Assembly (NCBI RefSeq): GCF_024138715.1
Contig: NZ_CP092074.1
Span: 1,736,001-1,800,000 of the forward strand
Source of the DNA: Emticicia sp. 21SJ11W-3
GTDB taxonomy: Bacteria; Bacteroidota; Bacteroidia; Cytophagales; Spirosomataceae
Reading direction: 5' to 3'
DNA: 64,000 nucleotides
A program made the translations under genes and the position numbers. The notes under the pieces are model-generated. The model made no database searches and was not told where the DNA came from. It was given only the letters and a program-made list of their open reading frames with translations. This document shows positions 3,144 to 32,957 of this stretch, one piece after another (position 1 is the stretch's first letter; every line of letters begins with the position of its first letter).

Positions 3144-4881
3144 AGTACCTGCTTTTTTTCAAATCAGTTATCAGTATCTCGCGGCCATCAGATTTTTTAA
3201 TGAAAATTCTGTTTTGCTCTTCAGGATTAACTCTCTGAATAATATCTGAGTTTTTGGGTAGATAAAAATTGGTAAGCTGCGCATCAACCACCGAAAACGG
3301 TGGCAAGTCTTTGCCGCCCGGTGTGCTGTTGTCCAGAAAAGAACAATAAATTACCGTATCACCTTTGGCATAAAGGTTCACTATTTTGTCAGCAGCCAGT
3401 TTATATGGGTTTTCTTTTCTTGGTTCAGCAAAATGCATAAAATACCTGGGTGCTTTGTCTTCCCAGATGTTTACCACTATTCCGCATACCAACACCAGTT
3501 GCACGCCCAGAAGCAACACTAAAGCATACTTAACGCTTGATTCCAGCAATAACATCTGCCTGATAAGCAAGGCTGTCAGCACAATGCCAAAGGCATACAT
3601 ATAGCCTATGTATCGGGGCATAATTCTGAACGTATTGCCATCCTGAATTGAAAATAATATCAGAAACACAAAAGGCAACAAAGTGAGCATTGATAAAAAT
3701 ACCAGTAATGGGTGATTGGCTGCTTTACTTTTCTTTAATAATGTGCTTAGCAGAATAACCAGCAGTGCTATATTAAGGGTTAGCACCATAAAATGAAGCC
3801 TGGCGGTGCTGTAAAGAAAGAAATCGAGTACCAGCAACCCGCAGATACCGGCAACTTTCAGTTTGTCAGACGGTAGCCATCTGAAACAAGACACCCCAGC
3901 CAAAACACTTACCAGTGCAATGATTGTATTTTTTAGACCTGATAAATGAATATATAGCCCCTCGCTGGTTATAAATGCCGATGAAACTACAAAGCGCAAC
4001 TGTTTAAAAATGTTGGGCAGGGTTGCCACCGACAGGTAGTCGTCAGGGGCTGTTCTGGCCATTATATTGTATGATTTTACGCTGTTTTCAACGTATTCAA
4101 TTAACCAGCGGCCACCGTCTGATTTTAGCCAGACAACCACACCCATAGCCGGAATGAGCATGGCAAGCGCAAGCCCGACCCATACCCTGAGTTTCCTCAC
4201 GTAAATGATTACATAAAGCCCGTGAATCAAAAAAAGCGGAAATGCCGAGATGTGGCATAGCTCGCAGGCTAGTGCGCTCAGGCCATAATACAAATAAAAG
4301 GCAAGGCTGCTTTTATTGTTTTTTTCTTTCTCTAAAATAATCAGAAACAAGTGGGTGGCCAGCAATGAAAAAAAGAAGAGCAGCGCATAATTGCGGGCAA
4401 CCTGTGAATAGGTAATATTAAAGGGCGAAACAGCGGCTAAAAATGATGCCAGCAAAGCCAGATTAGATGATTTAAAATGTCTGTTAACAAACACGTATGT
4501 CAAAAACACCGTCAACAGGTTAAATATTAAAGACATAAACCGCAGGTCAGCATCCTGAAGGCCAACCAGCTGTGTCCAGTAGTGTAAAGAATACGTATAT
4601 AAAGCCCCATTGCCGGTGTCAATCCGCGCTATTGAATCAAAAAAATCATGAATACTTTTTTCTGACCAGAACTCCCTTGGGGTGAAATAGGGGCTGTCGG
4701 GCTTTCTTACTGAGTTCCGCTGGTTATTGCCTTCGTAGCTCACAAACTGGCTCACAAAAAGCGAGTATTTCTCGTCGCCTGCCAGGCCATGTTTGCCTAT
4801 GTTATGAAAACGCAATAAAAAAGCAAGCACCATAATGCCTGCTAATATAATAAAGGTTGTTTTTCGGCTCAGAGAGAACAT
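3142..4881 (-). CDS. GT39/ArnT-like membrane glycosyltransferase
   Basis: A 579-residue polytopic inner-membrane protein with about 11-12 hydrophobic helices. The N-terminus has one helix followed by a periplasmic loop with the HGLAGDEKYSL segment, where the Asp-Glu pair is the conserved acidic site of GT-C fold enzymes (PMT/ArnT/GT39) that transfer sugar from a polyprenyl-phosphate donor. A soluble C-terminal portion of ~100 residues follows. Acceptor and sugar cannot be inferred. It lies 16 bp downstream of rpe and is probably co-transcribed with it. Superfamily assignment is good, exact activity unknown. Confidence 0.75.
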   Translation of the reverse strand: MFSLSRKTTFIILAGIMVLAFLLRFHNIGKHGLAGDEKYSLFVSQFVSYEGNNQRNSVRKPDSPYFTPREFWSEKSIHDFFDSIARIDTGNGALYTYSLHYWTQLVGLQDADLRFMSLIFNLLTVFLTYVFVNRHFKSSNLALLASFLAAVSPFNITYSQVARNYALLFFFSLLATHLFLIILEKEKNNKSSLAFYLYYGLSALACELCHISAFPLFLIHGLYVIIYVRKLRVWVGLALAMLIPAMGVVVWLKSDGGRWLIEYVENSVKSYNIMARTAPDDYLSVATLPNIFKQLRFVVSSAFITSEGLYIHLSGLKNTIIALVSVLAGVSCFRWLPSDKLKVAGICGLLVLDFFLYSTARLHFMVLTLNIALLVILLSTLLKKSKAANHPLLVFLSMLTLLPFVFLILFSIQDGNTFRIMPRYIGYMYAFGIVLTALLIRQMLLLESSVKYALVLLLGVQLVLVCGIVVNIWEDKAPRYFMHFAEPRKENPYKLAADKIVNLYAKGDTVIYCSFLDNSTPGGKDLPPFSVVDAQLTNFYLPKNSDIIQRVNPEEQNRIFIKKSDGREILITDLKKSRY

Positions 4882-4897
4882 ACAGCTTCAGTTGTAT

Positions 4898-5566
4898 TTA
4901 ATGATGAGTATCACATATATTTTTAAGGTCTCTGATGGTTTGCGCAGGGTCGGTCGAGTTAAAAACAAAACTACCGGCTACCAAAGCATTGGCACCTGCA
5001 TCTACTAAAAGGCCTGCATTGGCAGTGGTTACACCACCGTCAATTTCTATCATTGTGCCAAGTCCGCGTTCATCTGCCATCCGGCGCACTTTCCTTACTT
5101 TTTCGTAGGTATGTTCAATAAATTTTTGTCCGCCAAAACCAGGGTTAACAGACATAATCAGAACCATGTCAATATCATGAAGAATGTCTTCAAGTACGTT
5201 TACCGGGGTATGCGGGTTAAGCGCCACACCGGCCTTGCAGCCAGTATCTTTTATTTGTTGCAAAGTACGATGCAAATGCGGGCAGGCCTCGTAGTGTACA
5301 GTAATAATTTCAGCGCCTAGCTTTTTAAATGTTTCAATATAACGCTCAGGCTGAACAATCATCAGGTGTACATCCAGCGGTTTCGTTGCATGGCGTTGAA
5401 TGGCTTCAAGCACGGGCATTCCGAATGAAATATTAGGCACAAAAACACCATCCATAATATCAATATGAAACCAGTCTGCAACAGAGTTGTTCAACATTTC
5501 GGCATCTCTTTGCAAATTGGCGAAGTCGGCCGCCAGTACAGAGGGGGCAATAATCGTATTTTTCAT
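4898..5566 (-). CDS. rpe: ribulose-phosphate 3-epimerase
   Basis: A 222-residue TIM-barrel enzyme that interconverts D-ribulose 5-phosphate and D-xylulose 5-phosphate in the pentose phosphate pathway. The start (IIAPSVLAADFANL), the metal-binding HIDIMDGVFVPNISFG block, the DVHLMI strand, MSVNPGFGGQKFI and EIDGGV are all present, including the two catalytic aspartates. Length is standard. A perfect -7 box (TACCTTTG) ends only 4 nt before the ATG, so the transcript may be leaderless. First gene of a likely two-gene unit with the membrane glycosyltransferase. Confidence 0.97.
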   Translation of the reverse strand: MKNTIIAPSVLAADFANLQRDAEMLNNSVADWFHIDIMDGVFVPNISFGMPVLEAIQRHATKPLDVHLMIVQPERYIETFKKLGAEIITVHYEACPHLHRTLQQIKDTGCKAGVALNPHTPVNVLEDILHDIDMVLIMSVNPGFGGQKFIEHTYEKVRKVRRMADERGLGTMIEIDGGVTTANAGLLVDAGANALVAGSFVFNSTDPAQTIRDLKNICDTHH

Positions 5567-5570
5567 ACTG

Positions 5571-5578
5571 CAAAGGTA
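5571..5578 (-). promoter_or_regulatory. -7 box of rpe
   Basis: TACCTTTG on the minus strand matches the Bacteroidota -7 consensus TAnnTTTG. It ends 4 nt from the rpe ATG, which puts the expected transcription start at or within a base or two of the start codon. Confidence 0.6.
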
Positions 5579-5697
5579 TGCTATTTTCGTTAAAAAAATG
5601 TGTGTAACCGGAAAGACAATTCAGCCTGGTACCCGTTTATCAGTGCTTCCAATACAGAAACATACGCCGGTTTTATCAAAAACAACTAAAAAAAGAT

Positions 5698-5705
5698 TAG
5701 TTTTG
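5698..5705 (+). promoter_or_regulatory. -7 box of the 2OG-oxygenase gene
   Basis: TAGTTTTG matches TAnnTTTG and lies 20 nt before the ATG at 5726. No clear TTTG -33 box at the usual distance. Confidence 0.5.
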
Positions 5706-5725
5706 CAGAAAAAATAAATCATTTC

Positions 5726-6682
5726 ATGGAACAAGCACTGCTTGACGAAATACCGTCATTAGACCTTGCAGACTTTACCTCCGGCGACCCTGAGCGTAAA
5801 GCCAGATTTGTGCAGGATATCGGAAATGCCTTTAACACCATAGGCTTTGTAGCAATAAAAAATCATGGTTTGACAGAAGACCTGCGGGTAAAACTTTATG
5901 ATGCCGTTCAGAAGTTTTTTTATCAGGCAGACGAATTGAAAACAAAATATGAGTTTCCGGAGCTGGCAGGGCAGAGGGGTTATGTGGGCAAAGGAAAAGA
6001 AACCGCCAAAGGGCATAATCGCCCGGATCTGAAAGAGTTTTATCATGTGGGTCAGCCGATTGCCGAAGGCGAGATGCCCAGCAATGTTTTCCCGTCTGAG
6101 GTTCCGGAGTTTGAAACTTACACGCTGGCCGTTTATAAAACTTTTGAAAATACAGGTAAAACACTATTAAGCGCCATTGCCCTTTATCTGGGCTTGCCCG
6201 AAGATTACTTTGAAGAAAAAGTAAGAAACGGCGATAGCATTTTGCGTGCCTTGCACTATTTTCCGATTGAAAACCCCGATACATTGCCAGAAGGAGCCGT
6301 AAGAGCTGCGGCACATGGAGATATAAATCTGATTACCTTGCTGATGGGTGCTTCTGCCGAAGGGTTGGAAGTATTACGCCTGGATGGCAAATGGATTCCG
6401 GTTACGGCATTGCCAGATCAGATAATCATCAACGTAGGTGATATGCTTGACCGCCTGACGAATCATAAACTGAAATCGACGATTCACCGGGTAGTAAATC
6501 CGCCTCGTGAAAAAATGAAAACGTCCAGATTCTCTATTCCTTTTTTCATGCATGCCAGAGCAGAAACAGACCTTACCTGCCTTGAAAGTTGCATTGATGA
6601 GGCCAATCCGCGCAGATATGAAAACATGACAGCCGGCGAATTTCTGGACGAAAGACTAAGAGAACTGGGGCTTAAAAAATAG
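5726..6682 (+). CDS. isopenicillin N synthase-like 2OG-Fe(II) oxygenase
   Basis: A 318-residue cytosolic non-haem iron oxygenase. An N-terminal DIOX_N domain (residues ~10-125) contains FNTIGFVAIKNHG, and the catalytic 2OG-FeII_Oxy jelly-roll follows. The iron triad is visible as His197 and Asp199 in AHGDIN and His254 in STIHRVV; Arg268 and Ser270 in SRFS bind the 2-oxoglutarate carboxylate. The RxS motif argues for 2-oxoglutarate use rather than IPNS-type chemistry. Bacterial homologues are commonly labelled isopenicillin N synthase family without a proven substrate, and no biosynthetic cluster lies nearby. Single-gene unit with its own promoter and terminator. Confidence 0.88.
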   Translation: MEQALLDEIPSLDLADFTSGDPERKARFVQDIGNAFNTIGFVAIKNHGLTEDLRVKLYDAVQKFFYQADELKTKYEFPELAGQRGYVGKGKETAKGHNRPDLKEFYHVGQPIAEGEMPSNVFPSEVPEFETYTLAVYKTFENTGKTLLSAIALYLGLPEDYFEEKVRNGDSILRALHYFPIENPDTLPEGAVRAAAHGDINLITLLMGASAEGLEVLRLDGKWIPVTALPDQIIINVGDMLDRLTNHKLKSTIHRVVNPPREKMKTSRFSIPFFMHARAETDLTCLESCIDEANPRRYENMTAGEFLDERLRELGLKK

Positions 6683-23232: not shown

Positions 23233-24363
23233 TTAATCAATCCAGCCATCTGGCTTGCTTGGGGTTCGGTACTTGCCTTCCAGGCACGGTGCCAGTGGTG
23301 GTCTTGTTAAATCGGGCCCTGATGGCTCTGGTATAAATGTATGCCCCAAAAGTCCGATTGGTCTGGCTAAGCCTGAAGCATTTTCGCGTCCGATCCAATA
23401 TCTCCAAGCTCTTACAGACGTTACCATGAAAAATCCGGCCACGGCTTCATCAGGGTTGGTAATATTCTTTACATTGCCAATAATGGCTGCGGGCGGGGTA
23501 TCTACCAGACTACCGTTGTTCTGTACCTGATTCACAAGCAGTTTCATGTATTGAAAAGCATTAGGTGAAACCGACTGCTGTTTTATTTCAATTAAGGCTC
23601 CTCTGGCAGCATAATAAGGTATTTTAGCAATCAGCCTGCCTAAAATTGGTTTTCCGTTTGAATAAACATCACTAAAAACATTCAGGTCTTTATTATAAAA
23701 AATCTGCCAGCAGTCGCCGTTGCAATTATAATCATAAGTTGCATTGGCATAATTGGCTTCTATCTTACATTCGCCGGGCGATGGATTCAGAAAAAACCTG
23801 CCACCATAACAGGTTGCGCATATACTTTGCTTCTCCCACAGTTTCCAGGTCCACATGTAGCTGTTTTTTTCATTGGCAGGGTCTTCGGTGTCAAGGTAAA
23901 TATAGTGTGCCGGTTCTGTTCCGAGCGATGCCTCAATGCCATCTACCTTAAACTCATCATACACATTTGTAATAGCCGGAATACCGCCCAGTTTCTCTAC
24001 TTCAGATTCATATCTGGTGCCATCTGCCCGCTGAAAAGCAAGTTTATAACTTCGGCCAACTTGGGTATGAAAAGATAAAGGAAGTACATATACCCCGCCT
24101 GAACGCTCAGTAAGCGGAATTCTCTCGGTGTTGTCTACTATGATTTCTACCTTGGCACCGGCTACAGGAATGGCATAAACAGTATTGGCGGCACTGTAAG
24201 ACTCTATAATTTTTACCGATTGCTCTTCGGCTAAATCGGTAATGGTAGCATCAATTGTCAGTATTTTTCTTTCTTGCTGAACATTCAGGTCGTAAGGCTC
24301 TACGCAGGCATAAAACATTACACAAATTGAAATCAGGTATGCGAGGTTTTTGCTTTTGAGCAT
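23233..24363 (-). CDS. DUF4249 lipoprotein (third in tandem by transcription)
   Basis: 376 residues with a lipoprotein signal ending at Cys (CVMFYACVEP) and the same architecture as its neighbours: TIDATITDLAEEQSVKIIES, the C-x2-C...C...C-x3-C-W cluster, NVFSDVYSNGKPILGRLIAKIPYY, SLVDTPPAAIIGNVKN and the C-terminal KPDGW motif. It is separated from its neighbours by 27 and 42 bp, consistent with one mRNA. The pattern of identity to the copies on either side indicates tandem duplication followed by divergence. Confidence 0.87.
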   Translation of the reverse strand: MLKSKNLAYLISICVMFYACVEPYDLNVQQERKILTIDATITDLAEEQSVKIIESYSAANTVYAIPVAGAKVEIIVDNTERIPLTERSGGVYVLPLSFHTQVGRSYKLAFQRADGTRYESEVEKLGGIPAITNVYDEFKVDGIEASLGTEPAHYIYLDTEDPANEKNSYMWTWKLWEKQSICATCYGGRFFLNPSPGECKIEANYANATYDYNCNGDCWQIFYNKDLNVFSDVYSNGKPILGRLIAKIPYYAARGALIEIKQQSVSPNAFQYMKLLVNQVQNNGSLVDTPPAAIIGNVKNITNPDEAVAGFFMVTSVRAWRYWIGRENASGLARPIGLLGHTFIPEPSGPDLTRPPLAPCLEGKYRTPSKPDGWID

Positions 24364-24390
24364 TTGATTGATTATAAAAATGATGTTTTC

Positions 24391-25539
24391 TTAATTTACC
24401 CAACCTTCCGGTTTGGCATCGGTACGGAATCTGCCCGGTATGCACGGCGCCAGAGGTGGCCTGGGTGGATCTGGCGGTAATGACGCGGGCTCATAGTTGA
24501 GCTTATGCCCCAGAATACCGGTTGGTACAGCGCCGCTGCCTTCGGCGTTCCGGCGGCTCAGCCAGTAGTTTACTTTTCTGACACCCGTTACCATAAAAAA
24601 GCCTGCTACTGCTTCTGTAGCATTATTAGTGTTTCTGATGTTACCAATAACGGGTGCAGGCGGGGTATCAACCAGGCTTCCTGTTGTTTGCGCCTGGTCT
24701 GCCAGTATTTTCAGATACCTGTATGCTGCAGCCGTAACCGATTGCTGGGTAATTTCTATTAAGGCACCTTCTGCCGAGTAATAGGGTATTTGTGCTACCA
24801 ACCTTCCGGTTATGGGTTTGCCATTGCTAAACACATCACTGAAAACATTCAGTTGCGCACTATAAAAAATATCCCAGCAATTGCCATTACAAGCATAATC
24901 AAAAAATGGCGTCTGGTTATATTTTTCTTCTCTTACACAATCGCCAAAAGGCAATGGTGAAGTATAATACCTGCCATAAGAGCACGATTTACAAATGATT
25001 TGTTTCTCCCATAATCTCCACGACCATACGTAATTGTTTTTCTCGCCGGCGGGGTCATTGGTGTCAATGTAAACATAATTTGCCGGCGCTTTACCAAAGG
25101 CAGTTTCAAGGCCTTTCAGCATGAAGCCATCATAAACTTTTTCTATTTCGGGTACGGTTGTCATTATTTCTTCTGCCGACTCATATTTTGTTCCGTCAGG
25201 TTTTACGAAAACAAGTTTATACGCATTTCCTGCCTTTACTTTGAACGACGCAGGTAACGCATAAATACCACCGTCTTTTTCTGTAAGTGTTATCTTATCT
25301 GTATTATTGACAATAACTTCCACTTTCAGATTGCTAACCGGAAAAGCATAAACCGAGCTATTACGGCTTTCAGACTCTGTGATAGTAAAAGTCTGCTGCT
25401 CGTCGGTGTCTTTAATGGTAGCGTCTACAGTTAGTATTTTTCTTCCATAGGGGAACGCAACTTCAAACGGTTCAACGCAGGCAAACACGCCAAAAACAAT
25501 TGACAAAAACACCCAGGTCTTTTTAGCACTCATTAACAT
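24391..25539 (-). CDS. DUF4249 lipoprotein (second in tandem by transcription)
   Basis: 382 residues. Lipoprotein signal (VFGVFACVEP), TVDATIKDTDEQQTFTITES, the C-x2-C cluster (CKSC), NVFSDVFSNGKPITGRLVAQIPYY, SLVDTPPAPVIGNIRN (one Ala to Pro and one Val substitution in the otherwise fixed core), VAGFFMVTGVRKVNYWLSRRN and C-terminal KPEGWVN. An ATG three codons further in is also possible. Same predicted role as its paralogues. Confidence 0.87.
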   Translation of the reverse strand: MLMSAKKTWVFLSIVFGVFACVEPFEVAFPYGRKILTVDATIKDTDEQQTFTITESESRNSSVYAFPVSNLKVEVIVNNTDKITLTEKDGGIYALPASFKVKAGNAYKLVFVKPDGTKYESAEEIMTTVPEIEKVYDGFMLKGLETAFGKAPANYVYIDTNDPAGEKNNYVWSWRLWEKQIICKSCSYGRYYTSPLPFGDCVREEKYNQTPFFDYACNGNCWDIFYSAQLNVFSDVFSNGKPITGRLVAQIPYYSAEGALIEITQQSVTAAAYRYLKILADQAQTTGSLVDTPPAPVIGNIRNTNNATEAVAGFFMVTGVRKVNYWLSRRNAEGSGAVPTGILGHKLNYEPASLPPDPPRPPLAPCIPGRFRTDAKPEGWVN

Positions 25540-25563
25540 CTGTATTTATTATTTGTTGTGTGA

Positions 25564-26607
25564 TTAATTTAACCAGCCATCTGGTTTTTCAGGTGTGCGT
25601 GTCGGCCCTTTTTCACAGGCATAAGAGATAGGAAAAGTAGATAAATTAGGTTTACGACCTAATAACCCGATTGGGGCAGCTTTGCCAATGCCATTTTCCC
25701 GACTTAACCAATACTTTTGAACCACCATACTTGCTACCGAAAAAACACCTGTAACAGGTTCATCAGCGTTACTTAAATTCCTGATGTTTCCTATGATAGC
25801 CGCAGGGGGTGTGTCTACCAGGGTTCCATTGGTTTGCTGTTGTTCGCTTACCAGTTTAAAATATTTATATGCCTTTTCTGATACAGTCAGTTGTTTAATT
25901 TCAAGCAGGGCACCATCAGAAGAATAATAGGGTATTTTTGCTACCAGCCTTGATGTAACCAGTTTTCCGTTTGAAAATCTATCGCTGAAAACATTAAAAT
26001 CTTTGTTATTCAAAATTTCCCAGCAGTTAGTTTTACAGTAATAATCGTAATAATCGATACGGCAAAATTTCTGGCTCTCCCAAAGTTTCCATGTCCATAC
26101 ATAATAATCGGTGGTATTACGGTTGTCCTGAAAATCCAGAAAAACATAGCTGGCCGGTATATCATTGAAATCGCCTTTCAGACCTTTTACCTCAAAATTA
26201 TCAAAGATGCGGTCTATGGCAGGTACTGGCGTTGTTTTTTCCTCTGTCGACTCATAGGTAGTTCCATCAGGTTTCTTAAACCGCAGCTTGTAAGTTCTGC
26301 CGGGTTCAATCCGGAAAAACTCAGGCAAATAATAAACTCCGTTTTGGTTTTCGTGCAGGCTGATTTTCTCTGAGCCACTCACTATTAATTCAACATCCAG
26401 GCGCTTAACAGGCGTATTGTAAATGTCTCCGCTAAAATTGTTGGTTTCGTTAATACGAATGGCCTGTGTCGGTTCTACATCATTTAAATTAGCTTCTACA
26501 ACCAGGTACCGGGCATTATTTGGCAGTGGAATCTCATAAGGCATAACACAGGCGCATAGGAGTTGTGCAAGCAAAAAAAGTATAGCTTTTGAGAATCTTT
26601 CCATCAC
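25564..26607 (-). CDS. DUF4249 lipoprotein, first of four in tandem, shorter variant
   Basis: 347 residues, the shortest and most divergent copy. Lipoprotein signal (LLCACVMP), VVEANLNDVEPTQAIRINET, NVFSDRFSNGKLVTSRLVAKIPYY, TLVDTPPAAIIGNIRN and C-terminal KPDGWLN. It lacks about 20-30 residues of the cysteine-rich insert: only one Cys and the C-x3-C-W pair remain, and the C-x2-C pair is gone. It has its own perfect -7 box 36 nt upstream and is therefore the operon leader. Confidence 0.87.
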   Translation of the reverse strand: MMERFSKAILFLLAQLLCACVMPYEIPLPNNARYLVVEANLNDVEPTQAIRINETNNFSGDIYNTPVKRLDVELIVSGSEKISLHENQNGVYYLPEFFRIEPGRTYKLRFKKPDGTTYESTEEKTTPVPAIDRIFDNFEVKGLKGDFNDIPASYVFLDFQDNRNTTDYYVWTWKLWESQKFCRIDYYDYYCKTNCWEILNNKDFNVFSDRFSNGKLVTSRLVAKIPYYSSDGALLEIKQLTVSEKAYKYFKLVSEQQQTNGTLVDTPPAAIIGNIRNLSNADEPVTGVFSVASMVVQKYWLSRENGIGKAAPIGLLGRKPNLSTFPISYACEKGPTRTPEKPDGWLN

Positions 26608-26753: not shown

Positions 26754-29144
26754 TTAGAAGTCAACCTGAAAACTCAGAACCGGCACCAGGCCGTTTCCGG
26801 TTTTTCGGGTTTCAAGCCGGTTTTCAACGCTGTTGTATTGCACGCTTGTTGTGTTTATCCGATTGGTGGCGTTCTGAACATCAAGCGACACAACCGTTGC
26901 GTATTTACTTTTATTGGCTCTGTACGATACCCGGCCATCCAAACGGAAATAGGCAGGTGCCTGCAACGAATAGTCGGCTCCTTTAAGCTGAACGTAGGTT
27001 TTCTGACTGGCAGATGCAGCCTCGTCAATAGGAGTATACCTAAACCCGCCGTTATAAATGGACCTGGCGCCTATCTGAAAAACAGAGCCGTTTTTAAAAG
27101 TAAATTCACGCCCGAAAGTAAATGCAGTGCTGAACACATCATTGAAAGAAGAGTTGTAGGTCTTACCATCAAAGGTCTGATATCGGGCATTAAACAATGA
27201 GCCTGTAAGAACCAGGTAGTATTTTTTTGAAAAGAACCGCTCAACAGATAGGTCTATTCCGTAGTTTTTACCTTTGCCCTTGCTTACAGTAGTAGACTCA
27301 GGGAAGTAGTCAGAGTAATTTAACATCCAGTAAGATGACCCGGCTACAGGCTCAACCGGAATTTTTCTCAGTAGTTGGTAATAGGTTTCAGCCGAGAATT
27401 TCCAGAGGCCGGGTGTTACATAACTATAACTCAAAATAAAATGGTTAGACCTTGGAAAAGACAAATTCTTGTTGGGTTTAGACGAGGTAATTACCCCTGC
27501 TATGGTATCTCTTTTGCTGTAAAAATAGGCGCTCATAGGCAAAAGCTGTGCGTAAAGCCCATAAGCGAAACTGATGGTATGCGCTTTGGGTGAACGATAC
27601 AGGATAGATAACCGTGGCTCTAAAGAGGCGGTATTGTTCAGAAAAAGGTGCATACTATGCAAGCCGGCGTTTAGCGTAAAGCCATTGCCGAGGTTTTGAA
27701 CTAGCTGCGCATAGACCTGCGCGGTTTGTGTGCTACCGCTGCCGCTTACAGATACCTGCCGCCCGGCCTGAAGCTGGTTAATGTCTGTTACGTTATTACG
27801 GGGGGCGGTTTCTCTGAAAAAGTCGAAGTCGATGTAATTCAATATCAACCCGGTTTTCAGCCTTGTTTGGCTGCTGAACTTATAATTGTAGCTAAGCGAA
27901 CCCGCAAGCCTGAATTCAGAGAATCGCTGGGTGTCGTACCTGAACCGTTCGTCTTTCAGGTTCAGAGTGTCAGAGTTACGTCTGATTGAGCTACCTATTA
28001 CCGCCACAACATATTTGAGCGACGATTTCTCGTTGATATTACTGGTATGGGTAATGCCCATAGCACCCATGTTGGCCGGGCGCAGCCGGTCTTCCCAGTT
28101 GTCGGGTTTTCCGGGTATGCGTTTATCAGGGTCTTCTACCGGAAAATAGTGTTCGGTGCTTAGCCCGCCTAATCCGAAAACGGTAGTGGTTTTCTTACCG
28201 TCTTTACTATGAAAAGCCAGATTGAACGACAAATCCTGAAAAAGATTGGATACCCGTTCGCCCACAAGGTAATATCCCATCTGGCTCAACAGCCCCAGGG
28301 TAGAGTATCTGTAATTAACCAGATAAGACGAACGACCTTTGGTGATTAGCCCTTCGGTAGAAAAATCCAGCCCAAGTAAGCCTATTTTTGTGCGATACTC
28401 TCTTTTTTGCTGATTCCCCTCTCTGAACCGGATATCAAAGGCGCCGGTAATGGCATTGCCGTATTCGGCAGGCATACCGCCGGTAAAGAAGTCTGAGCGG
28501 CTCAGTAGTTGTGCACTGAAAACCGTGATGCCTCCACCGCCCGAACCCGGCTGCGCAAAGTGGTTGGGGTTAGGAATATCAATTCCTTCCAGCCGCCATA
28601 AAATGCCATAAGGCGAGTTACCTCTTACAATAATTTTATTTTCGTTTTCGTCGCGGCCGGGTTTAACGCCCGGATACGCCAGCGCCATCCGGCCGGGGTC
28701 GTTAACCGATGCCGGGATACGCTCGGTTTCTTCAACCGTAAAAGACCTTGCACTTACAAAAGCCAGGTCATTTACCGGTCGGCTGGTGTTTTGCGAAGCC
28801 GTTACTTTTACTTCCTGCAAATCGCTGCTTGCTTCTGCCATCTCTATGGTTAGCACGGCTTCTTTTACTGAATTAAGAATAAACTCTTCGCTTGAGTAAG
28901 CCTCATACCCAATTGAAGTACACTTGACAGAACGACGCCCTATGACAACATCAGGAATTGAAAAAAGCCCCGAAGCATCGGTAATGGCTCCTTGTGTAGT
29001 GCCGGTTACCTGTACTGAGGCACCGGTAATGGGCTGGCGGGTTATGCGGTCAATTACGCTGCCTCTCACCACCTGAGTTTTGGTTTGAGCCAGTACTGAT
29101 ACACAGCAGAAAAAAGTTAACAAAAGAGTAATCGGTATTTTCAT
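26754..29144 (-). CDS. TonB-dependent receptor with CarboxypepD_reg-like domain
   Basis: A 796-residue outer-membrane receptor: signal peptide (1-19), CarboxypepD_reg-like domain (~25-105, VRGSVIDRITRQPITGASVQV), plug (~115-225, IIVRGNSPYGILWRLEGIDI) and barrel to the terminal Phe (VLSFQVDF). It precedes the four DUF4249 genes on the same strand with a 146-bp gap and its own promoter. Its 5' end (first 35 coding bases) and promoter are duplicated on the far side of the insertion sequence at 31438-31919, but this copy is complete. Confidence 0.92.
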   Translation of the reverse strand: MKIPITLLLTFFCCVSVLAQTKTQVVRGSVIDRITRQPITGASVQVTGTTQGAITDASGLFSIPDVVIGRRSVKCTSIGYEAYSSEEFILNSVKEAVLTIEMAEASSDLQEVKVTASQNTSRPVNDLAFVSARSFTVEETERIPASVNDPGRMALAYPGVKPGRDENENKIIVRGNSPYGILWRLEGIDIPNPNHFAQPGSGGGGITVFSAQLLSRSDFFTGGMPAEYGNAITGAFDIRFREGNQQKREYRTKIGLLGLDFSTEGLITKGRSSYLVNYRYSTLGLLSQMGYYLVGERVSNLFQDLSFNLAFHSKDGKKTTTVFGLGGLSTEHYFPVEDPDKRIPGKPDNWEDRLRPANMGAMGITHTSNINEKSSLKYVVAVIGSSIRRNSDTLNLKDERFRYDTQRFSEFRLAGSLSYNYKFSSQTRLKTGLILNYIDFDFFRETAPRNNVTDINQLQAGRQVSVSGSGSTQTAQVYAQLVQNLGNGFTLNAGLHSMHLFLNNTASLEPRLSILYRSPKAHTISFAYGLYAQLLPMSAYFYSKRDTIAGVITSSKPNKNLSFPRSNHFILSYSYVTPGLWKFSAETYYQLLRKIPVEPVAGSSYWMLNYSDYFPESTTVSKGKGKNYGIDLSVERFFSKKYYLVLTGSLFNARYQTFDGKTYNSSFNDVFSTAFTFGREFTFKNGSVFQIGARSIYNGGFRYTPIDEAASASQKTYVQLKGADYSLQAPAYFRLDGRVSYRANKSKYATVVSLDVQNATNRINTTSVQYNSVENRLETRKTGNGLVPVLSFQVDF

Positions 29145-29591
29145 AGGGTGGAAGAAGGTTTAAACAAATATATTGAAATAATGCCGAAATCAGATAGCTA
29201 ATAAAAAATGTTACAATTGCTCATTTTTTTTAATGACCCCGAATTATCTTTGGGAACGTCAATCAAACTAAACATCATGAAAAAAATCTACCTGTTTGTG
29301 TTTTTTTATATAACTGTCAACCATGTTTTTTCACAGAATGCAATTCCGCTCATTCTTTCTGAGCGAGAGCGGGCAGTGGTGATAGATGAAATTCTGGAAG
29401 ACAGAATGAATAATCTGTTGCCACAACTGATGCGCAAAGAAGGCATTGATATGTGGGTGCTGATAGCAAGAGAATATAACGAAGACCCCGTTATGAAAAC
29501 CATGCTCCCTTCTGTTTGGCTTTCGGCACGCCGACGGACAATTATGGTGTTTTTTGACAAAGGGCCAAAAGAAGGTGTAGAAAGACTGGCC
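29110..29591. repeat. 482-bp direct repeat, left copy (IS target duplication)
   Basis: Identical base for base, as far as I could compare by eye, to 31438-31919 (offset 2328). It contains the first 35 bp of the TonB receptor gene, the divergent promoter region and the first 105 codons of the M24 aminopeptidase gene. It directly abuts the insertion sequence. The boundary is ambiguous by up to 2 bp (AG present on both sides). Confidence 0.93.
29165..29172 (-). promoter_or_regulatory. -7 box of the TonB receptor gene
   Basis: TATATTTG on the minus strand, 20 nt before the ATG at 29144. An identical copy sits at 31493-31500 in the right direct repeat, where it would fire into the end of the IS. 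Confidence 0.55.
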
Positions 29592-29636
29592 CTTAAGTTT
29601 GACAGTTGTTTTTGGAAAAAGCTCTTGGATGGCTAA
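29277..29636 (+). pseudogene. truncated 5' copy of the M24 aminopeptidase gene fused to IS end
   Basis: The first 105 codons are identical to the intact gene at 31605. At 29592 the frame runs into the IS left end and adds 14 IS-encoded residues (LKFDSCFWKKLLDG) before a stop. It keeps the native promoter box (TATCTTTG, 29245-29252) and signal peptide, so a short exported fragment lacking the catalytic domain could be made. It is a by-product of the long target duplication, not a second enzyme. Confidence 0.9.
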
Positions 29637-31437
29637 CTGGGGGCTATTTTGGCTATTTTTCGGAAAAAGTGTAGAGAGCCGATTGTGTTTTTGTCTATTG
29701 ACATTCAAAGCTATATGGTTGTAATTTTGCATTATGGCATATTTGAAAGTAGAGAGAAAGCAATCAGGCACTTATTTGCGCATTTTGGAGAGTTTCCGAA
29801 ATGGGTCAGGGAAGCCTAGTTCGAGGGTTTTGTATTCTCTTGGTAAGGTTGAAGATTATAAGCCTGAAGAACTTCGTAACATTGGCATCAGATTTTACGA
29901 ATTAGGTGGAGGAGAGTTGAAGACTATTTTGGAAGGGGACCTAATCGAATTAGGTCGATACAATTATGGTTATCAAAAAGTATTTGGTTATGCCCTGGAG
30001 CAGTATGGGTTAAGGCTTCTTTTGGATCGTCTTCAGCAAAAGAGCAAGCTTCAGTTCAGTCTTTTTGACAGTGTATTTCTGATGCTTTTGGAACGACTGC
30101 AAAGCCCTTGCAGCAAACGCAGCAACTTTCAGCATCGTGATGAGTACATAAACCTTCCCGAATTGTCATTACAGCACTTGTATCGGGCTCTGGATAAGTT
30201 GGCTCAGTATACTGAGTTAATCCAGCAGCAGATTTTTCAAACGGGTCGGAATCTTTTCAATCAAAGCCTGGATGTGGTATTTTATGATGTAACGACCTTC
30301 TACTTTGCCAGCGAAGTTGAGAAAGAAGGACAACTTAGACAAATGGGTTTTGGTAAGGATGGCAAAATAGGTAAAACACAAGTTCTTTTTTGTATGCTCA
30401 TAGACCACCTGAAAAACCCTATCGGTTATAGGGTTTTCAAAGGCAACACCTATGAAGGGGATACTTTTAGGGAAGCACTGGGCGACCTTAAAAAGCGATA
30501 CCAGATTGACAAAGTAATTGTAGTAGCCGATAGGGGGATGCTTTCAAAGAAAAACCTGGAAATAACAAATAGCAAAGGCTACGAATTTATCATTGGAGAA
30601 CGTTTGAAAAGCCTGCCCCAAAAAACGCAGCAAACCCTACTCGACTTAAAGAATTACCATCAGCAGTGGATATACAAAGATGCTACCGGACAAGATGTTT
30701 TGATTCGCTACACCACATTAAAACAGGAAGGCAAGACCTTTATTACTACCTACTCGGCAAAAAGAGCGGCCAAAGACAAGCAAGACCGGGAAGATAAACT
30801 ACAGCACGCACAGCACCTCTTGAAGAACCCTTCGAAAATCAACAATAAAGCCACCAGATTCTTCTTAAAATCAGATGAAAACCAGAAATATAGCCTGAAT
30901 GAAGAAAAAATAAAGGTCTCCGAAAAGTATGATGGGTTTTTAGCTATAAGCACCAATAATCAAAGCATGCCGGTAGCCGAAGTTCTGGACCAATACAAAC
31001 AACTATTCAAAATAGAACATAGCTTCAGAACCTTCAAATCCCATCTGGAAACCAGGCCCATGTTTCACTGGACAGACCAGCGAATCGAAGGACATATATG
31101 CCTGTGTTACATAGCCTTCGCCATACAAAACTTTGTCTTACAAAAAATTAACCGCGATAAAAATGTAATCACTGAAAAAGGGTTGAGGGATACCCTTGAC
31201 AAAATGCAAGTAAGCCTGATAGAAAATAACGGAGCCAAATCTTATCTAAGGTCTATGCCAACAGAAAACGAAAAAACTATCCTCCAAAAACTGGGCTTAA
31301 AACCAATATTACCCATACAAACGCAAGCAAAGTTTAAAATCTGAACTCGCACTCCAAATAACGGTTTGTAGAGAGCCGATTGGATATTCATGTGCCTTAT
31401 TATCAGCCACTTATCCCAAAATCGTGTCAAACTCAAG
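29592..31437 (+). mobile_element. IS1634-family insertion sequence, 1846 bp
   Basis: Bounded by imperfect terminal inverted repeats: left end CTTAAGTTTGACA, right end (reverse complement) CTTGAGTTTGACA, 12 of 13 identical. It carries one complete transposase gene. The size is close to IS1634 itself (about 1.87 kb). It is flanked by 482-bp identical direct repeats, as known for IS1634 and IS1549, which make long, variable target duplications. The intact transposase and identical repeats point to a recent insertion. A further internal inverted pair, GTAGAGAGCCGATTG, occurs in the same orientation at 29670 and 31369 near both ends. Confidence 0.92.
29734..31344 (+). CDS. IS1634-family DDE transposase
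   Basis: 536 residues, the usual length for the family. The catalytic triad of an IS4-superfamily DDE enzyme is visible: Asp185 in VVFYDVTTFYF, Asp266 in VIVVADRGM, and Glu428 in a Y421-(2)-L424-(3)-E428-(6)-K435 arrangement matching the YREK signature except for Leu in place of Arg. The insertion domain between the second Asp and Glu is beta-rich. There is no frameshift or stop, so it looks active. The truncated aminopeptidase promoter upstream reads in the same direction and may boost its transcription. Confidence 0.95.
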   Translation: MAYLKVERKQSGTYLRILESFRNGSGKPSSRVLYSLGKVEDYKPEELRNIGIRFYELGGGELKTILEGDLIELGRYNYGYQKVFGYALEQYGLRLLLDRLQQKSKLQFSLFDSVFLMLLERLQSPCSKRSNFQHRDEYINLPELSLQHLYRALDKLAQYTELIQQQIFQTGRNLFNQSLDVVFYDVTTFYFASEVEKEGQLRQMGFGKDGKIGKTQVLFCMLIDHLKNPIGYRVFKGNTYEGDTFREALGDLKKRYQIDKVIVVADRGMLSKKNLEITNSKGYEFIIGERLKSLPQKTQQTLLDLKNYHQQWIYKDATGQDVLIRYTTLKQEGKTFITTYSAKRAAKDKQDREDKLQHAQHLLKNPSKINNKATRFFLKSDENQKYSLNEEKIKVSEKYDGFLAISTNNQSMPVAEVLDQYKQLFKIEHSFRTFKSHLETRPMFHWTDQRIEGHICLCYIAFAIQNFVLQKINRDKNVITEKGLRDTLDKMQVSLIENNGAKSYLRSMPTENEKTILQKLGLKPILPIQTQAKFKI

Positions 31438-31472
31438 AAAAAAGTTAACAAAAGAGTAATCGGTATTTTCAT
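31438..31472 (-). pseudogene. orphan 5' fragment of the TonB receptor gene
   Basis: Thirty-five bases identical to the start of the receptor gene at 29144, encoding MKIPITLLLTF, then running into the IS right end; the frame stays open to 31242 antisense to the transposase 3' end. Its -7 box (31493-31500) is retained, so antisense transcription into the IS is possible. Confidence 0.85.
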
Positions 31473-31572
31473 AGGGTGGAAGAAGGTTTAAACAAATATA
31501 TTGAAATAATGCCGAAATCAGATAGCTAATAAAAAATGTTACAATTGCTCATTTTTTTTAATGACCCCGAAT

Positions 31573-31580
31573 TATCTTTG
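31573..31580 (+). promoter_or_regulatory. -7 box of the aminopeptidase gene
   Basis: TATCTTTG, perfect TAnnTTTG, 24 nt before the ATG at 31605. Identical copy at 29245-29252. Confidence 0.6.
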
Positions 31581-31604
31581 GGAACGTCAATCAAACTAAA
31601 CATC

Positions 31605-32957
31605 ATGAAAAAAATCTACCTGTTTGTGTTTTTTTATATAACTGTCAACCATGTTTTTTCACAGAATGCAATTCCGCTCATTCTTTCTGAGCGAGAGCGG
31701 GCAGTGGTGATAGATGAAATTCTGGAAGACAGAATGAATAATCTGTTGCCACAACTGATGCGCAAAGAAGGCATTGATATGTGGGTGCTGATAGCAAGAG
31801 AATATAACGAAGACCCCGTTATGAAAACCATGCTCCCTTCTGTTTGGCTTTCGGCACGCCGACGGACAATTATGGTGTTTTTTGACAAAGGGCCAAAAGA
31901 AGGTGTAGAAAGACTGGCCATTGCACGCTACGACGTAGGTAATTTGCTGAAAGGTGAATGGGACCTGAACACAAACCCCGACCAGTGGGATGCCCTTATA
32001 AAGGTAATTAAAGAAAAGAACCCTAAGAAAATAGGTCTTAATTTTTCGACCCACTATGCCCATGCTGATGGGCTGACCTACACTGAACACAAGGAGTTTT
32101 TAGATAAACTGCCTACAGATTTACAGGGAAGAATAGTGTCGGCAGCCAACCTTGCCGTTAACTGGCTGGAAACTCGCACCACCCGCGAAATGATTATTTA
32201 CCAGCAGATATGCCGCATTTCTCACGAAATTATTCAGGAGGCATTTTCAGATAAGGTTATTCAGCCCGGCATTACCACTACCGACGACGTGGTGTGGTGG
32301 CTTCGCCAGCGTGTAACTGATTTAGGCCTGGAAACCTGGTTTCACCCAACGGTGGATATTCAAAGATTTGACCCTGAAAACTTTGACCACCTGCGGACAT
32401 TTTCAAAGCGGCCGCAAAAGCAGGTAATTATGCCCGGCGATTTGTTGCATTGCGACTTCGGCATTACCTATCTGCGCCTTAATACCGACCAGCAGCAGCA
32501 TGCCTATGTGCTTAAACCCGGCGAGGCAGATGTACCCGGGTATCTGAAAGCTGCTTTCAGACAAGGCAACCGTTTACAGGATAACCTCACTGATAATTTC
32601 AAGGCAGGTTTAACCGGAAACGAGATTCTGGCAAAGGCACTTGCGCAGTCTAAGAAAGAGGGTTTAAGAGGCACAATTTATACGCATCCCATCGGGAATC
32701 ACGGCCATGCAGCGGGGCCAACCATAGGCATGTGGGACAATCAGGGCAAAACCATTGGCAGCGGAGACTACCCACTCAATTTCAATACGGCTTATTCAAT
32801 TGAACTGAATGTGTCTGTAGATTTACCTGAATGGAAGAAGCCCGTCAGAATAATGCTGGAAGAAGACGGATTCTTTGACGAGAAGGGTTTTCGCTACATT
32901 GATGGCAGGCAGACAGAGATTATTCCGATTCCTAAACCGATGAGCGGTGTGAAGTAA
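31605..32957 (+). CDS. exported M24-family (Xaa-Pro aminopeptidase-like) protein
   Basis: 450 residues from the ATG at 31605, chosen because it begins a signal peptide (MKKIYLFVFFYITVNHVFSQ) and follows a -7 box. An upstream ATG at 31536 precedes that box and is unlikely. The C-terminal ~230 residues have the pita-bread fold with CDFGITY, THPIGNHGHAAGPTIG and NTAYSIELNVSVDLPEW. Some metal ligands of true aminopeptidases P are not obvious, so activity is uncertain. Members in Bacteroidota are exported, M24-type peptidase homologues. The gene is intact because the IS duplicated its 5' region. Confidence 0.88.
   Translation: MKKIYLFVFFYITVNHVFSQNAIPLILSERERAVVIDEILEDRMNNLLPQLMRKEGIDMWVLIAREYNEDPVMKTMLPSVWLSARRRTIMVFFDKGPKEGVERLAIARYDVGNLLKGEWDLNTNPDQWDALIKVIKEKNPKKIGLNFSTHYAHADGLTYTEHKEFLDKLPTDLQGRIVSAANLAVNWLETRTTREMIIYQQICRISHEIIQEAFSDKVIQPGITTTDDVVWWLRQRVTDLGLETWFHPTVDIQRFDPENFDHLRTFSKRPQKQVIMPGDLLHCDFGITYLRLNTDQQQHAYVLKPGEADVPGYLKAAFRQGNRLQDNLTDNFKAGLTGNEILAKALAQSKKEGLRGTIYTHPIGNHGHAAGPTIGMWDNQGKTIGSGDYPLNFNTAYSIELNVSVDLPEWKKPVRIMLEEDGFFDEKGFRYIDGRQTEIIPIPKPMSGVK

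Follow-up and report, generated by a model that had tools for sequence, protein, structure and literature searches.

The stretch of DNA analysed here, 64,000 nucleotides of contig NZ_CP092074.1 of Emticicia sp. 21SJ11W-3 (hereafter the window), carries an insertion sequence (IS) of the IS1634 family that is flanked by long direct repeats and lies between the divergent starts of two genes, one for a TonB-type outer-membrane protein and one for an M24-family metallopeptidase (Table 1). The element is 1846 bp long, within the 1500-2000 bp of the family, and its 13-bp inverted ends are imperfect, matching at 12 of 13 positions (CTTAAGTTTGACA and CTTGAGTTTGACA); both CTTAAGTT and CTTGAGTT satisfy the family's end pattern, C-----YT. 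Its sole gene encodes a transposase of 536 amino acids (aa) that scores 348 bits against the NCBIfam IS1634 model NF033559, for which the cut-off is 100, and that matches DDE_Tnp_1 (PF01609) in Pfam. The repeats on either side, each of 482 bp, align without a single difference (482/482), and identity over such a length excludes a chance repeat. In the identity of the repeats, the size and inverted ends of the element between them, and the assignment of that element to the IS1634 type, our analysis agrees with the original prediction made for this locus.

Table 1. Features of the insertion locus, in window coordinates
Feature	Position	Strand	Basis
IS1634-family insertion sequence, 1846 bp	29592-31437	+	five full-length genome copies, identical boundary bases in all
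Left copy of the target-site duplication, 482 bp	29110-29591		482/482 identical to 31438-31919; single copy in congeners L030, L031, L032
Right copy of the target-site duplication, 482 bp	31438-31919		482/482 match to 29110-29591
Left terminal inverted repeat CTTAAGTTTGACA	29592-29604	+	repeat search of window
Right terminal inverted repeat CTTGAGTTTGACA (minus-strand reading)	31425-31437	-	repeat search of window
Transposase, 536 aa, DDE residues D185, D266, E428	29734-31344	+	NF033559, PF01609, alignment, fold match
CarboxypepD_reg/TonB-type outer-membrane protein gene, 796 aa, left complete	26754-29144	-	open reading frame; Pfam
M24-family metallopeptidase gene, complete right copy	31605-32957	+	open reading frame; Pfam PF00557; start aligned in 9/10 congeners
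Truncated 5' peptidase copy, running about 14 codons into the IS	29277-29636	+	open reading frame
TAnnTTTG box, probable peptidase promoter; left duplicate faces transposase gene	29245-29252	+	motif scan
TAnnTTTG box, probable promoter of TonB-type gene	29165-29172	-	motif scan

Five full copies of the window IS are present in the genome (G000, searched as one contig of 5.18 Mb), three of them identical, one with 1 difference and one with 5. All five lie between flush direct repeats, of 482, 371, 120, 44 and 127 bp, the last being 97% identical and belonging to the most diverged copy. The original prediction had named the repeats of other copies as a test, and the four others are indeed long and variable, not short and constant. 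Two further IS1634-type elements reside in the same genome: one has repeats of 106, 112, 174 and 429 bp at four of its five copies, and the other has a 133-bp repeat. At the fifth copy of the former (L110, G000:C1:452700-462700) the arrangement is disturbed; the element lies in the 3' portion of what by eye appears to be an IS3-type transposase gene, and a 235-bp repeat, 98% identical, is adjacent at its left end and 379 bp away at its right.

The empty site, a second check proposed at the outset, was sought in congeneric species. Ten further genomes of the genus were searched; none matches the transposase, all 10 hold the peptidase gene, and in nine the divergent TonB-type gene adjoins it; in the tenth (G006) there was no TonB-type match within the stretch compared beside the peptidase gene. 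In three congeners (L030, L031 and L032) the left window flank and the whole duplicated stretch align as one piece, in single copy, adjoining the peptidase gene and at 73-75% identity, while the intergenic DNA of the other seven is too diverged for full alignment across the site. Since the congeners lack the IS and the site is unduplicated wherever it can be aligned, the repeats were made by the insertion. Together with the long and variable repeats of the other copies, all flush with the element, this makes it almost certain that the 482-bp repeats are the two halves of a target-site duplication (TSD) made in one transposition event, as had been predicted.

Long duplications turn out to recur in a wider group of elements. 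Family members were collected from three sources: 392 genomes of the same phylum, 50 of which gave a match; 395 genomes of the class, of which 18 match a profile of the long-TSD clade at E 1e-60; and 72,556 plasmid records, among which 118 had a match and 12 of these were hand-picked and fetched. Clade copies were counted only where at least 250 bp lay beyond both ends of the transposase match, copies near contig ends remaining uncounted, and this left 50. Flush repeats flank 34 of them, another five are disturbed by indels, Ns or extra sequence, and 11 have no repeat. The flush repeats range from 13 to at least 629 bp with a median of 127 bp (the longest is cut by a contig end), and only one is shorter than 30 bp. 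Twenty-nine of them were anchored by script, two (156 and 281 bp) come from a pair of copies in genome G139 that have exchanged flanks, and three are from plasmids (406 bp, about 308 bp in two pieces and listed as 309, and 13 bp). Several copies share a genome (11 from G000 and 4 from G139), and the lineages are accordingly not all independent.

Sister clades of the family behave differently. No flush repeat of at least 18 bp was found at any of the 24 sister-clade copies examined; six could be resolved and have duplications of 6-7 bp (TTACGT, TTAGAA, TTGAGA, TTGTAA, TTACAA and TTATTAT), the other 18 being unresolved, and three plasmid members of these clades have duplications of 5 to 7 bp. 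In a tree of 47 transposases, one of them (L223) a partial protein of 377 aa, 38 could be given a length class, 29 long and 9 short, where the long class includes the non-flush L119, L128, L153 and L218 and the 13-bp Ligilactobacillus row L191. The long-TSD elements form one clade of 32 rows (bootstrap 100, Shimodaira-Hasegawa-like approximate likelihood ratio test 98), and the class changes once on the tree. The row with a protein identical to the window transposase (L104) is the deepest branch of this clade and sits on a long end branch. A crude profile test hardly separated two clades for L187, L189 and L192, distant rows from plasmids, and the tree was used for their placement. Members include elements of Persicobacter (Bacteroidota), Carnobacterium and Ligilactobacillus (Bacillota), and Mycobacterium and Rhodococcus (Actinomycetota), the Rhodococcus element being without a repeat and a Mycobacterium plasmid relative having a TSD of 608 bp. 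Judged from these sequences, long TSDs thus appear to mark one clade of the IS1634 family that spans three phyla.

The sites at which the elements of this clade join their targets have something in common. We analysed target motif and gene context in 29 of the 50 copies, taking for each break the strand to which the element end is joined; outside this set are the flank-exchanged L116 and L117, L184, L191 and L192, and the five disturbed and eleven repeat-free copies named below, while L141, whose gene is truncated, was kept because its repeat is flush. The first joined base is A (background 0.29) at 24 of 29 right ends and 27 of 29 left ends, and the second base is a purine (R) at 24 and 26, respectively. 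At 44 of the 58 sites A is followed by a purine, whereas 2000 draws of random sites lying 15-200 bp away gave a mean of 9.06 and a maximum of 18. Both copies of the repeat contain these bases, which therefore belong to the target, and it is the same preference at both breaks, combined with a variable spacing, that forms the basis for a two-site model. The pattern suggests that the two strand transfers are separate events, each guided by sequence, and that the distance between them varies. No helical phasing of the TSD lengths was apparent by eye.

DDE transposition characteristically duplicates a target stretch of fixed length, which the geometry of the two active sites determines. The clade found here in Bacteroidota, Bacillota and Actinomycetota may have lost that fixed spacing of strand transfer, a reading that we regard as quite possible, if still short of probable. 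The two 3' ends of the element would join opposite strands of the target at separately chosen sites (immediately before 5'-A-R in most cases), tens to hundreds of bases apart rather than with a constant 5-6 bp stagger. The host would then copy what lies between the nicks (32 to more than 600 bp, with one exception among the measured events) by strand-displacement synthesis from the target 3' ends, and a complete copy of the target stretch would end up on each side of the element. In the window, one break fell within a gene, 35 bp from its start, and the other fell 315 bp into the divergent gene beside it, so that each gene remained whole on one side. On the same reading, landings at gene boundaries would spare the genes concerned, and the repeats, if the reading is true, could allow homologous recombination to remove the element precisely.

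At the same time, a number of observations weigh against this reading. The combination A-R is found at both ends in only 16 of the 29 events, at one end in 12 and at neither in one, and in the window copy the right-end break fits (AAAAAAG) but the left-end break starts with G (GGCC). Uncoupled attack in either polarity would also be expected to yield deletions of the target, of which we saw no clear example; when such products were sought for L137 and L139 in their genus, the flanks proved to be other mobile DNA. Strand displacement is itself something that we infer. The 11 of 50 copies without a flush repeat also count here. Seven of them are probably degenerate, L120 having an internal stop and L173, L174, L228, L229, L235 and L236 truncated genes; of the other four, L230 has only a short flank at one end, L137 lies directly against a group II intron, one flank of L139 looks by eye like another transposase gene, and L190 adjoins a second, partial copy. 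At L110, L119, L128, L153 and L218, finally, the repeats are non-flush or contain indels or Ns.

Several other explanations deserve consideration. An ordinary short-stagger insertion between the units of a tandem duplication that was already there would likewise leave the IS between two copies of the target, but the site is in single copy in L030, L031 and L032, and the 34 clade copies with flush repeats of differing lengths, set against none of at least 18 bp in the 24 sister copies, make this explanation improbable in the extreme; we have rejected it. The presence of two further long-repeat elements in the same genome might point to the replication or repair machinery of the host, and not to the element, as the source of long repeats. 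However, genome G126 holds one family member with a 45-bp duplication and another with a 7-bp duplication, which points to the element as what controls length, and on the transposase tree the trait changes a single time, in a clade that crosses three phyla. It therefore seems to be the element that sets TSD length, and we judge control by the host to be very unlikely. A sequential attack is harder to set aside. Here one end would join first, a fork or polymerase would start copying away from the nick, and only later would the other end join, at the next suitable site, the delay setting the length of the TSD. Such a process would give duplications only, never deletions, in keeping with the lack of a clear deletion product, and it would account for the wide spread of lengths, to which an exponential fit is not rejected (Kolmogorov-Smirnov p 0.34 to 0.50). 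Yet a lognormal distribution fits as well (p 0.72), lengths below 30 bp are fewer than a pure exponential with the same mean predicts, and the near-equal preference for A at the two ends does not mark out either of them as special. The shared break motif cannot by itself tell simultaneous from sequential attack, and we consider the sequential scheme possible, if somewhat doubtful.

The remaining explanation concerns why such elements should persist: long TSDs might have been selected because they spare the genes that are hit. With open reading frames (ORFs) of at least 100 aa standing in for genes, 11 of the 29 events interrupt an ORF, seven have at least one break inside an ORF that the duplication kept whole, and 11 lie between ORFs; in the window event both breaks fall inside ORFs that survive whole. 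Random placement with the same lengths would interrupt an ORF in 22.4 of 29 events, and in 26.0 were the duplications 6 bp long, although this null applies the gene density of one window to all hosts. The deficit may reflect survivor bias, a choice of AT-rich targets or both, and because these explain it equally well we think selection for sparing unlikely. The claim that a long TSD can make an insertion harmless thus holds at the level of ORFs for this locus and for six more of the 29 events, and fails for the 11 in which an ORF is broken. Gene sparing is a frequent side effect of these insertions, not a rule.

Long duplications have precedents within the family. PMC2266710 (2008) gives a TSD of 5-6 bp for the IS1634 family, with IS1549 and IS1634 as exceptions at 8-514 bp, in line with what the original prediction said of these two, and states that a mechanistic model for long duplications had not yet been proposed. 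IS1549 of Mycobacterium smegmatis and IS1634 of Mycoplasma mycoides share with the window element the NF033559 family and long, variable repeats; the window element differs in residing in a Bacteroidota genome. ISGka5 of Geobacillus and the members with 5-6 bp duplications share the transposase family, and the window IS has ends that fit C-----YT, but ISGka5 duplicates 6 bp (PMC8024623), compared with 482 bp here. The five window-type copies (44-482 bp) match the long and variable form of the family, while the 5-6 bp form falls in other clades on the tree. In the literature searched we found neither a clade-level TSD survey nor a target motif for the IS1634 family, although subscription papers were mostly outside the search and such work may exist; PMC3852290 and PMC11004492 contributed nothing further on the long-TSD clade. 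What was known, then, is that IS1549 and IS1634 make long, variable TSDs, and what appears to be new is the clade-wide rule and the shared target motif. If the trait does mark one clade and both breaks do share a motif, the mechanism can be tested on long-TSD and short-TSD relatives matched to each other, one such pair being present in a single genome. For annotation, a search for repeats of 5-6 bp would misread such elements or overlook the duplicated gene ends next to them.

The transposase itself offers some further points of comparison. D185, D266 and E428 are conserved in all 14 rows of the alignment, in which Y421, L424 (at the R position of the YREK motif) and E428 are invariant and K435 nearly so; the motif is incomplete, lacking the R, as is usual for the IS1634 family. 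The predicted structure is of modest confidence (mean predicted local distance difference test score 68.8), and its best fold match in the PDB is the Tn5 transposase 3ecp (E 3.6e-8, TM-score 0.31), while a short stretch gave a PC4-like match (E 0.29). The likeness to Tn5/IS50, of the IS4 family, would thus lie in the predicted fold and the DDE triad. Tn5 differs in that its duplication is fixed at 9 bp, compared with 482 bp for the window IS. For IS50, PMC2266710 lists 8-9 bp. The nearest relatives found are transposase fragments from Lacihabitans sp. LS3-19, 83-87% identical, with a Cytophagales metagenome-assembled genome also among the nearest. All six Lacihabitans loci (L023-L028) end inside the element at a contig end, where no TSD can be read, and the clade members L134, L135, L138, L181, L182 and L183 also sit at the ends of draft contigs. 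Several draft genomes break at these elements, and TSDs are therefore undercounted in draft assemblies.

A few individual copies carry traces of other events. L116 and L117 (G139:C1, at about 2.01 and 2.06 Mb) have exchanged right flanks, so that the left repeat of one is found to the right of the other. This points to recombination between the two, probably an inversion given their opposite strands. Beside L137, at about 4662-6513, is a group II intron (Rfam matches at 4709-4825 and 6438-6513 with a reverse-transcriptase-like ORF between them) that by eye seems to start about 1 base after the right end of the IS1634-family element. The left TSD copy of L192, on a Carnobacterium plasmid, was later interrupted by some 115 bp of extra DNA with a 10-bp overlap, which may be a small non-autonomous element.

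The neighbouring genes in the window correspond to the pair, and to the divergent order, that had been predicted, with the proposed aminopeptidase now refined to a peptidase of the M24 family and with the TonB Plug domain of its neighbour just below the Pfam cut-off, the CarboxypepD_reg domains being above theirs. The 482-bp TSD takes in 35 bp at the start of the TonB-type gene, everything between the two genes, and 315 bp at the start of the peptidase gene. Because it spans both gene starts, as had also been foreseen, the TonB-type gene is complete on the left and the peptidase gene on the right, each side carrying in addition a truncated piece of the other gene. Between the starts each strand has a single TAnnTTTG box, lying 20-35 bp ahead of the start concerned, against a chance expectation of 0.70 per 482 bp of window; this motif we take to be the Bacteroidota promoter consensus, and the TSD carried the intergenic DNA together with both of these probable promoters. 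The left duplicate of the putative peptidase promoter is oriented toward the transposase gene. Downstream of the TonB-type gene lie three tandem DUF4249 genes (23233-26607), which may make up one outer-membrane operon.

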